The notes beneath the pieces are model-generated. The model ran no database searches and was not told where the DNA came from. It worked only from the letters and a program-made list of their open reading frames with translations. Shown piece after piece: positions 31,768-35,021 of a stretch of 46,228 bases of DNA. Both the position numbers and the translations under genes were made by a program. This DNA is from Natrinema thermotolerans DSM 11552 (lineage in GTDB: Archaea; Halobacteriota; Halobacteria; Halobacteriales; Natrialbaceae), in NCBI GenBank assembly GCA_000337115.1, contig AOIR01000053.1, positions 21,260-67,487 of the forward strand, read 5' to 3'. Each line of letters opens with the position of its first letter. The stretch's first letter is position 1.

Positions 31768-32349
31768 TCAGTTCAGGACGACGATCGCAACCCCCGAGAG
31801 GACGATCACGCCGAGGATGTCACAGACGTTCGTGACGACCGGGATCGTCGTGTCGTCGGGGTCCAGCCCCTGTTTGTAGGAGACGTAGGTCGCGAGGACG
31901 CTGAGGACGATCGCCAGCCCGGCCAGCACCATCCCGCTGACGACCGAGATGACCATGAGGTCGACGAGCGCCATCGGTTCGGCGATGAACTGGCCGACGA
32001 GCCAGGCGACGATCCCCAGCGCGGTAAAGATCGTCGCCGCGAGCCCGAGTATCGCCAACACGTTCGTCCACAGCACCTCGTCGCGGGGGTCGAACTCGAG
32101 CAGGCCCAGGTGGAGCCGCGTCGAGAGCCGCGAGGAGAGGATCGCGCCGAGGTTGCCGCCCATACCGATCATCACGGGCACCAGGACGAGCAGCGTGGGA
32201 TTTGCGAGGTAGGTTGCCTCGAGTTCCTCGAGGACGTAGCCCGACCCCATCTCGAGGATCGAGAGTGCGATCAGGATGGGAAACATCGTGGCGACGATGC
32301 TCCGGACCGACCAGGTGTTGACCGACTCGTCGGGATCGGTCGCGCCCAT
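31768..32349 (-). CDS. MgtE-type cation transporter membrane half (second gene)
   Basis: This 193-residue protein is the membrane domain of MgtE alone, with about five transmembrane spans and no N or CBS domains. Family marks are MIGMGGNLGAILSSRLSTRLHLG (residues about 64-86, spans the GN...SSRLST block) and LDPDDTTIPVVT followed by NVCDILGVIV, which contains the conserved cation-site Asp. The start MGATDPDES overlaps the stop of the upstream MgtE gene in an ATGA. Two halves in tandem suggest a heterodimeric Mg2+ or divalent cation channel. Gating, done by CBS domains in full MgtE, may be supplied by the neighbouring PhoU-TrkA_C protein. Confidence 0.85.
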   Translation of the reverse strand: MGATDPDESVNTWSVRSIVATMFPILIALSILEMGSGYVLEELEATYLANPTLLVLVPVMIGMGGNLGAILSSRLSTRLHLGLLEFDPRDEVLWTNVLAILGLAATIFTALGIVAWLVGQFIAEPMALVDLMVISVVSGMVLAGLAIVLSVLATYVSYKQGLDPDDTTIPVVTNVCDILGVIVLSGVAIVVLN

Positions 32350-32924
32350 CAGAAGATCACCCCGACGACGGTGATCGCGACGAACAGGAAGACGACGCCG
32401 AAGATATCGCCGAGCGTGGTGACGATCGGCCCGATCAGGTTGTCGGGATCGAGCCCGTACTCGTAGCTGGCAAACACCAGCGCCAGCATGCCGAAGATCA
32501 GCGTGAACGAGGTCAATACGCCCGAGACCAGCATGATGCCGACGAGTTCGATCAACCGCGCCGATTCGCGACTCAGGACCTGCAGGAGGCCCCACGAGAG
32601 GACGGCGATGAACACCGAGATGCCGATCCCGTTGATAAAGGAGGCCGCGACGGCGTTGACGAGTCGCCGGTCCCACGAGAACTCCGGATCGATCATCCCC
32701 TGATGGAGGCCACTCGAGATGCGCGCGCCGAGTGCCCCGTAGACGTTCCCCCGAGTCGCGAGGAATGCGGGCAGGAGCAACAGGAGGCCGGGGAACCGCT
32801 CGAATCCCGCGGTCATCCCCTCCGAGCCGAGGACTGAGCCGGCGAAAACCCCGCCGGCGAGGCTGACCACGAGGATCGGCAGTGACTCGCGGTAGATGCG
32901 CCACGCGTCTTGGCGAGCCGCCAT
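32349..32924 (-). CDS. MgtE-type cation transporter membrane half (first gene)
   Basis: This 191-residue MgtE membrane domain is the paralogue of the next gene. Visible are LLLLLPAFLATRGNVYGAL with SSGLHQG, and the pore-region block LDPDNLIGPIVT and LGDIFGVVFLF with the conserved Asp. Around five transmembrane spans are predicted. The start MAARQDAW at 32924 gives a short polar N terminus. The two genes overlap by four bases and should be co-translated. The separate halves differ at many positions, as expected for an obligate heterodimer. Confidence 0.85.
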   Translation of the reverse strand: MAARQDAWRIYRESLPILVVSLAGGVFAGSVLGSEGMTAGFERFPGLLLLLPAFLATRGNVYGALGARISSGLHQGMIDPEFSWDRRLVNAVAASFINGIGISVFIAVLSWGLLQVLSRESARLIELVGIMLVSGVLTSFTLIFGMLALVFASYEYGLDPDNLIGPIVTTLGDIFGVVFLFVAITVVGVIF

Positions 32925-33065
32925 AGCGTCGTCTAACGCAGGCCGGACATATACCTACCACGGGTCGAACCCGAGCGGATCGCGCGAAACCATGGGGATG
33001 GGTATCACACATGGTGGATCGCTAACGTGTTTCGACCGGGCCGGCGTGGTTCCCCGAACTGGACC

Positions 33066-33494
33066 TCAGAGGGCGGCGACGAGTCCCCACGCGAGGCCGA
33101 TCGCGGCGAGCGACCCGGCGAGACCGGCCGCGGCGTTGCCGATCGCGAGGGCGCGGTCGCCGTCCTCGTACAGTCGAACGGTCTCGACGGAAAACGAGGA
33201 AAACGTCGTGAACGAGCCACAGAACCCGGTCGCGACGAGTCGTAGTGTCGACTCGCTCGCGCCTGCGAAGACGACGAGCCCGAGGGCGAAGCTCCCGAGA
33301 ACGTTGACGACGAACGTCGCCAGCGGGAGCCGCCCGCTCTCGAGGCGACTCGAGGCCCAGTGGCCGACCAGGTACCGACAGACCGCCCCGATCGCGCCGC
33401 CGGTGCCGACGACGTGGGCCGGCTCGGGGTCGACGGTGACGGTCGCGCGGGCGAGCGCCTCGAGCAGCGGGGCGCTCAGCAGTGCCGGGCTCAC
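33066..33494 (-). CDS. crcB: CrcB/Fluc fluoride channel subunit 2
   Basis: This 142-residue four-span protein belongs to the Fluc family of dimeric fluoride exporters. Motifs are GGAIGAVCRYLVG (about 32-44), FVVNVLGSFALG with the pore Asn, and GFCGSFTTFSSFSVE, the TM3 break with the conserved Phe pair. The start is GTG, overlapping the stop of the first crcB gene in GTGA. Paired genes usually make heterodimers in which each subunit keeps part of the pore residues. The pair lies under a fluoride riboswitch, which strongly supports the function. Confidence 0.92.
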   Translation of the reverse strand: MSPALLSAPLLEALARATVTVDPEPAHVVGTGGAIGAVCRYLVGHWASSRLESGRLPLATFVVNVLGSFALGLVVFAGASESTLRLVATGFCGSFTTFSSFSVETVRLYEDGDRALAIGNAAAGLAGSLAAIGLAWGLVAAL

Positions 33495-33898
33495 GCCGTC
33501 TCACCACCGGCGGGTCGGGGACCGCCGAGGCGACGCGCGAGCGCACGACCCGCGAGTACCCCGGCCAGTCCGAAACCGTAGTTGGCGGCGACGATGCCCA
33601 GCAGGGCAAGCGGCGTCGACGAGAGCGCGGCCTGCAGCGCGAACGTGCTGTAGGTCGACAGCGAGGAGAGGAATCCGGTCGTAAAGACGAGTCGCGCCCG
33701 CGACGACAGCCGGCCGGCGGCCTCGGCCTCGTAGACGACGACGGCGAGGACGGCACTGGCGACCGCGTTGACGAGGACGATCGACGCCGTATCCGGGACC
33801 ACACCCATCGCGAAGAGCCGGAGGTTCGAGCCAGCGAACCCGCCGATAGCGATCAGTGCGACCGTCTCGAGTCGAACGAGGGGATGTGAGTCTGCCAT
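33491..33898 (-). CDS. crcB: CrcB/Fluc fluoride channel subunit 1
   Basis: This 135-residue four-span protein has GGFAGSNLRLFAMG (about 19-32), VLVNAVASAVLAV with the conserved Asn, and TTGFLSSLSTYSTFAL, the TM3 motif. It is more divergent from the consensus than its partner: Arg in GAxxRY is kept but the Tyr is Leu. It is the first gene of the pair and its ATG lies 11 nt after the 3' end of the fluoride riboswitch, so fluoride sensing should control translation or early elongation of both genes. Confidence 0.9.
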   Translation of the reverse strand: MADSHPLVRLETVALIAIGGFAGSNLRLFAMGVVPDTASIVLVNAVASAVLAVVVYEAEAAGRLSSRARLVFTTGFLSSLSTYSTFALQAALSSTPLALLGIVAANYGFGLAGVLAGRALARRLGGPRPAGGETA

Positions 33899-33908
33899 GG
33901 CTGGTGGT

Positions 33909-34002
33909 GGCAGGGACCGTCAGCCGACCGGCGCCCACGACGCGGGGGCGTCACGGCCCGGTCGCGACGGTCGGCAGTTGGGTCAGGCGGGCCCCATCGC
34001 CC
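33909..34002 (-). ncRNA. Fluoride riboswitch (crcB motif)
   Basis: On the minus strand the aptamer begins GGGCGATGGGGCCCGCC (33986-34002), continues AACTGCC, and ends GGCTGACGGTCCCTGCC (33909-33925). This matches the crcB-motif consensus almost base for base. The pseudoknot GGCG/CGCC is present, stem GGGGCC pairs with GGTCCC (one G-U), and hairpin GCCGACCG pairs with CGGTCGGC. The hairpin loop is unusually long (about 37 nt, GC-rich). The ligand is fluoride. It ends 10 bases before the crcB start, with no T-rich terminator between, so translational control is more likely than termination. Confidence 0.88.
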
Positions 34003-34109
34003 GGATACGACGCGGTTCGTCCAGGCACGAAATGAACGTTGCGAACACCGTCACGCCGCGACGAGCGAGGAGGGAAAGACCCAAGGTTAGACTCGCTCTA
34101 AACCGAGCC

Positions 34110-35021
34110 ATGGCCGAAGACGTCCCCGCGGACGGTGGTCGGTCGGCGTTCGCGCGAGCGTCGTGGGCGAACGTCCTCGGTAACGTCGTGAAGATCGTCG
34201 CCGAGGGAAGCGCGGGGCTTGCCTTCGGCAGCGTTGCCCTGCTCGCCGACGCGGCCCACTCGCTGGCGGATCTGGTCGCCAGCGTCGTCGTCCTCGTCTG
34301 GGGGCGGAGTTCATTCGACGAACCCGACACGACGCATCCACACGGGCACGACCGGATCGAACCGCTGACGGCGCTTTTCGTCGGGGCGATGATCGCACTG
34401 CTCGGGCTGAACCTGCTCTACCGGTCGGTCGAGGGACTCCTGGCAGGCCCCGATATCGAGTTCAGCGTCCTGTTGCTCGCGGCGCTTGGCTTCTCGATCG
34501 GCGATATGTACCTGGTCTATCGCTACACCGTCCGTATCAACGACCGTCTCCAGTCGACCGCACTCGCCGCGCTCGCGAAGGACTGTCTGAACGACATCTA
34601 CACGTCGATTGCCGCCATCGTCGGCGTCCTCGGCGTGCTGGTGAACTACCCGATCCTCGACCCGATCGCCGGCGGCCTCGTCAGCCTGCTCGTCGTCTAT
34701 CAGGGCGTCGAGATCGGCCGGGAAAACGTCGACTACCTCATCGGTGCTGCTCCCGGGCCCGAGAAACGGGGGGAGATCACTGGGGCCCTCCGTCGCCACC
34801 CGGCCGTCGAGGGCGTCCACGACCTGACGGTTTTCTACGACGGTACCGTCCTCGAGGTCGAGGTCCACGTCGAGGTCGACGGTGACATGCCGTTCCGGGA
34901 GGCCCACGACATCGAGTCGGCGTTGGTCGATCGCCTCCGGGGGCTCGAGGACGTCGGTGACGCACACGTCCACCTCGATCCATCGGGGATCGGCGAGTGG
35001 AAGGAGTCGGCCGAGCGGTGA
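34110..35021 (+). CDS. Cation diffusion facilitator (CDF) metal exporter
   Basis: This 303-residue protein has six predicted spans and a cytoplasmic C-terminal domain. CDF marks are SVALLADAAHSLADLVAS (about 41-58), carrying D47, H50 and D54 of the transport site, HPHGHDRIEPL after TM2, and KDCLNDIYTS (D-x3-D) in TM5. The C-terminal ZT_dimer-like region includes VHDLTVFYDGT and HVEVD. It probably exports Zn2+, Mn2+ or another divalent cation in exchange for protons. The His in TM2 favours zinc, but this is inference. The start MAEDVPADG is chosen over a long Arg-rich upstream extension. It converges on the histidine kinase gene with a 12-base gap. Confidence 0.9.
   Translation: MAEDVPADGGRSAFARASWANVLGNVVKIVAEGSAGLAFGSVALLADAAHSLADLVASVVVLVWGRSSFDEPDTTHPHGHDRIEPLTALFVGAMIALLGLNLLYRSVEGLLAGPDIEFSVLLLAALGFSIGDMYLVYRYTVRINDRLQSTALAALAKDCLNDIYTSIAAIVGVLGVLVNYPILDPIAGGLVSLLVVYQGVEIGRENVDYLIGAAPGPEKRGEITGALRRHPAVEGVHDLTVFYDGTVLEVEVHVEVDGDMPFREAHDIESALVDRLRGLEDVGDAHVHLDPSGIGEWKESAER

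Follow-up and report, generated by a model that had tools for sequence, protein, structure and literature searches.

A Natrialbaceae variant of the crcB-class fluoride riboswitch aptamer before a two-subunit Fluc operon of Natrinema thermotolerans, and its probable role in translation

Known fluoride riboswitches and the crcB locus

The crcB motif has been known in archaea from the start (PMC2864571), and, as of 2021, tests were available for only a single archaeal riboswitch (PMC8241225). The same source reports the fluoride riboswitch of T. kodakarensis as tested and describes it as presumably translational (PMC8241225). The element described here shares with it the archaeal host, the ligand fluoride and a presumably translational mode of action, and differs in that T. 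kodakarensis is a hyperthermophile whose aptamer is located before TK0513, and not directly before crcB (PMC4247193). In the haloarchaea, a parallel to the proposed mechanism is provided by the synthetic theophylline switches of Haloferax volcanii, in which binding of the ligand releases the start codon from an RNA structure that buries it, although these switches are artificial and mask a Shine-Dalgarno sequence as well (PMC8241225). In Haloferax, leaderless molecules make up 72% of the protein-coding transcripts, and leaders that are long and structured have been termed atypical (PMC4983044). Full-text searches, with few subscription journals in their coverage, found no published haloarchaeal fluoride riboswitch.

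The locus considered here belongs to a window (the whole stretch of 46,228 nucleotides that was analysed) of the genome of Natrinema thermotolerans DSM 11552. To judge from its sequence, the minus-strand leader of crcB in this window carries a complete crcB/fluoride aptamer, for which the binding of fluoride is predicted, and which lies 5' of two fluoride-resistance genes, crcB1 and crcB2, both of the PF02537 family. These genes overlap by 4 nt, with crcB1 being the first of the pair (Table 1). The favoured explanation, held with moderate confidence, is that a Natrialbaceae form of the crcB-class fluoride riboswitch acts as a translational ON switch for this operon, which encodes the two subunits (CrcB1 and CrcB2) of a Fluc exporter.

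The neighbourhood has two other features. Just downstream of the crcB1-crcB2 pair, at 31768-33012 on the minus strand, two ORFs encode MgtE divalent-cation transporter domains (PF01769), so that the transport of magnesium might be linked to a fluoride sensor that depends on this ion. On the plus strand, at 34110-35021, a gene for a cation diffusion facilitator (PF01545) is transcribed in the opposite direction to the crcB leader.

In comparison with the crcB aptamers of T. petrophila and B. cereus (RF01734), the Natrialbaceae form retains P1, the pseudoknot, P3, the bases A6/U7/G8, U38, G39, A40, and U48, and the position before crcB, but has C41, a GGGGCC/GGUCCC pseudoknot with a fixed G-U pair, and a J1/3 that is 3 nt longer. 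Its P3 reaches up to 76 nt, it has no terminator platform, and the copy in the window scores below the Rfam cut-off. The other haloarchaeal RF01734 aptamers (type A) are likewise located directly before crcB1, with the ATG some 10-19 nt away in the examples read, but these keep U41, have mostly a GGAGUC/GACUCC pseudoknot and a short P3, and clear the Rfam cut-off. The class is a known one, and the clade-specific variant of the Natrialbaceae is new.

Table 1. Coordinates of the features of the crcB locus (window positions; T. petrophila numbering for C41).
Feature	Position	Strand	Basis or remark
Fluoride riboswitch aptamer, Natrialbaceae variant	33912..34002	-	RF01734 19.6 bits; model R1 59 bits
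Hairpin P1, GGGCG 34002-33998 / CGCCT 33989-33985	33985..34002	-	Sequence; 100% of cells paired in 24 aptamers
5' pseudoknot strand, GGGGCC	33995-33990	-	Sits inside the P1 loop
3' pseudoknot strand, GGTCCC, partner of 33995-33990	33913..33918	-	Covariation
Extended P3 arm	33923..33975	-	Sequence; perfect 8-bp base and 37-nt apical extension (33967-33931)
P3 base strands, GCCGACCG / CGGTCGGC	33975-33968 / 33930-33923	-	Perfect 8 bp
C41, replacing the highly conserved U41	33919	-	C at this site in all 60 intact leaders of the family
crcB1, Fluc-type fluoride exporter subunit, 135 aa	33491..33898	-	PF02537 43.6 bits (cut-off 32.9); ATG at 33898
crcB2, second Fluc subunit, GTG start	33066..33494	-	PF02537 90.8 bits; TIGR00494 86.6 bits (cut-off 80.45)
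Promoter-like block CGCAACGTTCATTT, BRE/TATA position	34030..34043	-	Conserved, one leader per genus
CAGCC directly before the ATG, candidate anti-aptamer	33899..33903	-	Complementary to GGCUG 33925-33921
Alternative hairpin, CUGCCA 33913-33908 / UGGCAG 33897-33892	33892..33913	-	Minimum-free-energy fold of the leader

Architecture, homology, and decay of the aptamer

The original prediction of a crcB-class aptamer in a haloarchaeal crcB leader is borne out by the blocks found on the minus strand, which include AACTGCC, GGCTGACGG, and GGCTGACGGTCCCT, and by the score of an independent covariance model (59 bits, E 1e-15). All of the blocks that it named are correct, but two labels must be exchanged, given that GGCG/CGCC forms P1, and GGGGCC/GGTCCC, the pseudoknot. 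The prediction made no mention of C41 throughout the family, the match of the spacer to the 3' strand of the aptamer, the pairing of two exporter genes in one operon, or the degenerate copies of the congeners. In the window, this pseudoknot is of 6 bp (GGGGCC/GGUCCC), J1/3 is GACCCAACT, and the P1 hairpin and the P3 stem are found at the conserved spacing. The conserved positions A6 (33997), U38 (33922), A40 (33920), and U48 (33912) are all present, providing both the A6-U38 positions and the A40-U48 linchpin, which is important in the fluoride riboswitch (PMC8752731). The window copy is intact. U48 lies 13 nt before the ATG, and the end point originally given, 33909, lies 10 nt before it.

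The GC-rich "loop" of about 37 nt reported in the P3 hairpin is present, but is for the most part a base-paired extension rather than an open loop. Its interpretation as a halophile-specific insertion is rejected, because P3 ranges in length from 12 to 76 nt in the Natrialbaceae alone, and the P3 hairpins of other haloarchaeal families are short. This arm is an expanded peripheral helix, the length of which is free to vary. When the distinct variant P3 arms were compared with shuffled sequences, 40 of the 45 folded better (mean z -1.5), with the window's own arm reaching a z of only -0.58.

A match well above the gathering score of the Rfam 15 RF01734 covariance model (34 bits) had been named as support for the prediction. 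The stock model gave the window aptamer only 19.6 bits (E 0.0039 for a search of 401 nt), although this was still the best RF01734 match in the whole genome. Many of its relatives score 20-31 bits, in matches of approximately 90-114 nt. The shortfall is attributed to the length of P3 and to substitutions specific to the clade, and not to the absence of the element. Four relatives that share the C41 core but have a short arm (G020, G046, G212, and G350) do clear the cut-off, with 35.4-38.6 bits, and it is through homology to these that the clade is tied to the fluoride riboswitch class.

Given the low stock score, a haloarchaeal model (R1) was built from an alignment of 24 haloarchaeal aptamers, from which the window and its genus were excluded. 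This model recovers the element at 34004-33911 with the score given above, and the highest score that it gives over 400 kb of this genome is 14.8 bits, so that a chance match is rejected. The helices are kept in the 24 aligned aptamers, with P1, P3, and the pseudoknot being paired in 100% of the cells and five pairs altered on both sides, whereas pairing falls to 35-58% in a control in which the partners were slid. The pseudoknot covaries across types A and B, through GC/AU/GU and CG/UA exchanges, with no unpaired cells. The element almost certainly belongs to the riboswitch-class aptamers, and its ligand is very probably fluoride.

The distribution of the element depends on the model that is used. 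Model R1 detects it in 26 of the 29 genomes of the window's genus and in 77 of 121 Natrialbaceae genomes (E <= 1e-7). With the stock model, 34 of 391 haloarchaeal genomes exceed the Rfam cut-off, of which 29 are from outside the Natrialbaceae and only five from inside, which indicates that archaeal fluoride switches are under-counted. A crcB1 orthologue is present in all 29 congeners, and the element is directly 5' of this gene in those that bear it. The distance from the aptamer to the crcB start is nearly constant (11-20 nt) in nearly all intact members of the family. The architecture of the aptamer, its conservation, covariation, and near-constant position, together with the family-wide change of U41 to C, are all demonstrated at the level of the sequence.

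Within the genus, the aptamer has also been subject to degeneration. It is deleted in one congener (G027), has lost its 5' half in a second (G307) and the GGCTGA block in a third (G398), and bears point changes in a further six (G005, G142, G202, G391, G392, and G393). In two others (G375 and G395), a short insert with inverted ends separates GGCTGA from CGGTCCC; these inserts (loci L145 and L146, respectively) resemble a small non-coding mobile element, with the ends of the latter being TACGG...CCGTA. Elsewhere in the Natrialbaceae, a degenerate type A aptamer (GGCUAAUGGCUCCG, with G39A and no partner for U48) still stands before crcB (L060, in G056).

The survey also encountered fluoride aptamers in other settings. 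In three genomes of the same phylum from outside the haloarchaeal order (L195, G698:C3:201000-216000; L196, G638:C16:69000-78000; and L198, G436:C3:26000-34500), three to seven fluoride aptamers over the Rfam cut-off are found within 7-14 kb, preceding glutamine synthetase, F420-0:gamma-glutamyl ligase (CofE), enolase, and a prenyltransferase-toroid-like protein. Glutamine synthetase and CofE were not encountered as fluoride-switch genes in the fluoride-riboswitch literature examined. Two haloarchaea (L013 in G296 and L011 in G358) have a second fluoride aptamer approximately 415 nt upstream of the crcB aptamer, which precedes a small ORF of some 68-72 aa that has a Shine-Dalgarno-like GGTGGAGGTC.

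The crcB leader and its expression platform

A real 5' leader on crcB, as originally claimed, is supported by the conserved promoter-like block upstream of the aptamer. When one leader is taken per genus, the block cGcAAcnCTCATT is conserved at -42 to -31 from GGCG, and is followed by gaGAAC, and then by GTATCCG. The promoter-like block is also retained in G027, despite the deletion of the aptamer. At the usual archaeal distance between promoter and start, transcription would begin within GTATCC, at approximately 34004-34008, a few bases before P1, which would result in a leader of about 108-110 nt.

The absence of a terminator before the ATG was likewise correctly noted, given that no intrinsic terminator was found between the aptamer and the crcB start, nor any U-tract in 33899-33912. 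A translational platform, also part of the original prediction, is the most plausible form of control, and translational ON control without a Shine-Dalgarno site or terminator is considered probable. In the proposed mechanism, the bases just before or over the AUG would pair with the 3' strand of the aptamer when fluoride is absent, hindering initiation. This pairing would involve GGCUG and CAGCC or, alternatively, in the window leader, CUGCCA and UGGCAG. The switch would thus release the gene start and allow the protein to be made.

The evidence for this pairing comes mainly from the family. In the spacer, CAGCC at -5 to -1 holds 1.1-1.5 bits, versus 0.14-0.8 at -6 to -14, and CAGCC directly precedes the ATG in 34 of 60 leaders, with CAGYY in this position in 45 of the 60. 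The possibility that CAGCC is a general start context is rejected, given that, in a 446-kb portion of the genome with starts taken from a crude gene finder, only two of the 207 genes that begin with ATG have it, and one of these two is crcB1 itself. The spacer pairs with the 3' strand of the aptamer 5.9 kcal/mol better than shuffled spacers (mean by genus) in all 22 genera, although these are related and so do not count as wholly independent cases. As controls, neither the start of the coding sequence nor the region upstream has comparable complementarity. The match reaches 9-10 bp ending at the ATG in some genera (G028 and G253), and GUCAGCC is kept in G344 and G719 even though it is away from the ATG, as is GACCGUCUCAGCC in G212, before a start that is 95 nt distant. 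The CAGCC is missing from the leaders of genus g9 and some others.

The alternative pairing is found in the minimum-free-energy fold of the window leader, in which the CUGCCA/UGGCAG hairpin buries the start codon and takes up C47 and U48 of the aptamer. In a hand count, ATGGCAG was present in 11 of the 12 leaders that have CTGCC, versus nine of the 27 other leaders.

In a simple folding model of the family, positions -5 to -1 open in the bound state (0.33 versus 0.14 in shuffled sequences, p 0.004, uncorrected for relatedness), with no such opening of the AUG (-0.05). In the window leader, the predicted accessibility is the same in the two states, at 0.94/0.94 for -5 to -1, and 0.39/0.39 for the AUG. 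The anti-aptamer pairing here is of only 5 bp, and the very stable long P3 wins in folding. Given this short pairing and the lack of a predicted switch, the platform of this particular leader remains inferred, and the specific pairing at its start is put forward tentatively. A further fold, which pairs 33972-33966 with 33921-33915, is specific to the window; the relatives differ, and it is treated as unproven.

It is also conceivable, if unlikely, that fluoride is bound by the aptamer with an effect on transcription or on the stability of the RNA, through factor-dependent termination or the decay of the crcB mRNA, with the complementarity near the ATG being incidental. Among the fluoride riboswitches of bacteria, those best studied control transcription (PMC11077080), and the failure of the AUG to open in the bound state would be in keeping with this arrangement, as would the persistence of CAGCC in congeners with broken aptamers (G142, G307, G393, and G398), which suggests that this motif may have another role or that the decay may be recent. 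This alternative is opposed by the lack of any terminator hairpin or U-tract in the stretch from the aptamer to the start, by the distance of only about 13 nt from U48 to the ATG, and by the systematic nature of the spacer complementarity, which extends over 22 genera. Control of translation is preferred.

The substitution at position 41 and its significance

The position of U41 is occupied by C in all 60 of the intact Natrialbaceae leaders that could be anchored, which represent 22 genera, and U41 is kept in all of the genuine aptamers seen outside the family, in both the other haloarchaea and related members of the phylum. A pattern search of the phylum also returned GGCTGACG matches with C41 outside the family, but these lacked the AAC-GCC block, were coding-like, and were rejected. 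U41 is described as a highly conserved base, and the B. cereus riboswitch no longer responded to fluoride once it carried the substitution U41A (PMC11077080). The bound fluoride, for its part, touches magnesium and backbone phosphates, and not the bases (PMC8752731). As the ligand is held in this way, the exchange of one pyrimidine for another at position 41 may be tolerated for binding.

The behaviour of U41A in B. cereus, the fixation of C41, and the repeated decay of the RNA within a single genus would all be compatible with a substitution that had retuned or broken recognition, leaving an aptamer with a very different affinity for fluoride or salt dependence, one that recognizes another ion, or one that does not switch at all. 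This possibility is considered improbable, given that the linked gene is a fluoride exporter in every case examined, and that the other conserved positions and the three helices are nearly identical over 22 genera, unlike a dead element. The contacts of fluoride with the phosphates and magnesium also favour tolerance of the exchange. A conserved DNA or protein-binding element of the divergent crcB/CDF promoter region, with a chance likeness to the motif, might be suggested by the divergent intergenic location and the Rfam score under the cut-off, but is highly improbable in the face of the 59 bits obtained with the independent model, the compensatory changes in the pseudoknot, and the association of the element with crcB, downstream of the promoter block.

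A bolder version of the preferred reading, in which the riboswitch controls translation, is that the Natrialbaceae form is a functionally distinct aptamer, in which C41, the fixed pseudoknot, and the long J1/3 shift the affinity or the magnesium or salt dependence, and which works in molar KCl and controls a start without a Shine-Dalgarno sequence through direct anti-aptamer pairing. This is a possibility of rather low likelihood. If true, it would represent the first natural translational riboswitch shown in the haloarchaea, and a natural counter-example to the view that U41 is indispensable.

The fixed U41C substitution is a probe of the true requirements of the ligand site, and the congeners with broken or deleted aptamers provide natural loss-of-function comparisons. 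For the family as a whole, a leader defined by its sequence, in genetically tractable organisms, would make the action of a riboswitch testable in a setting in which most genes are leaderless and a Shine-Dalgarno sequence is not required.
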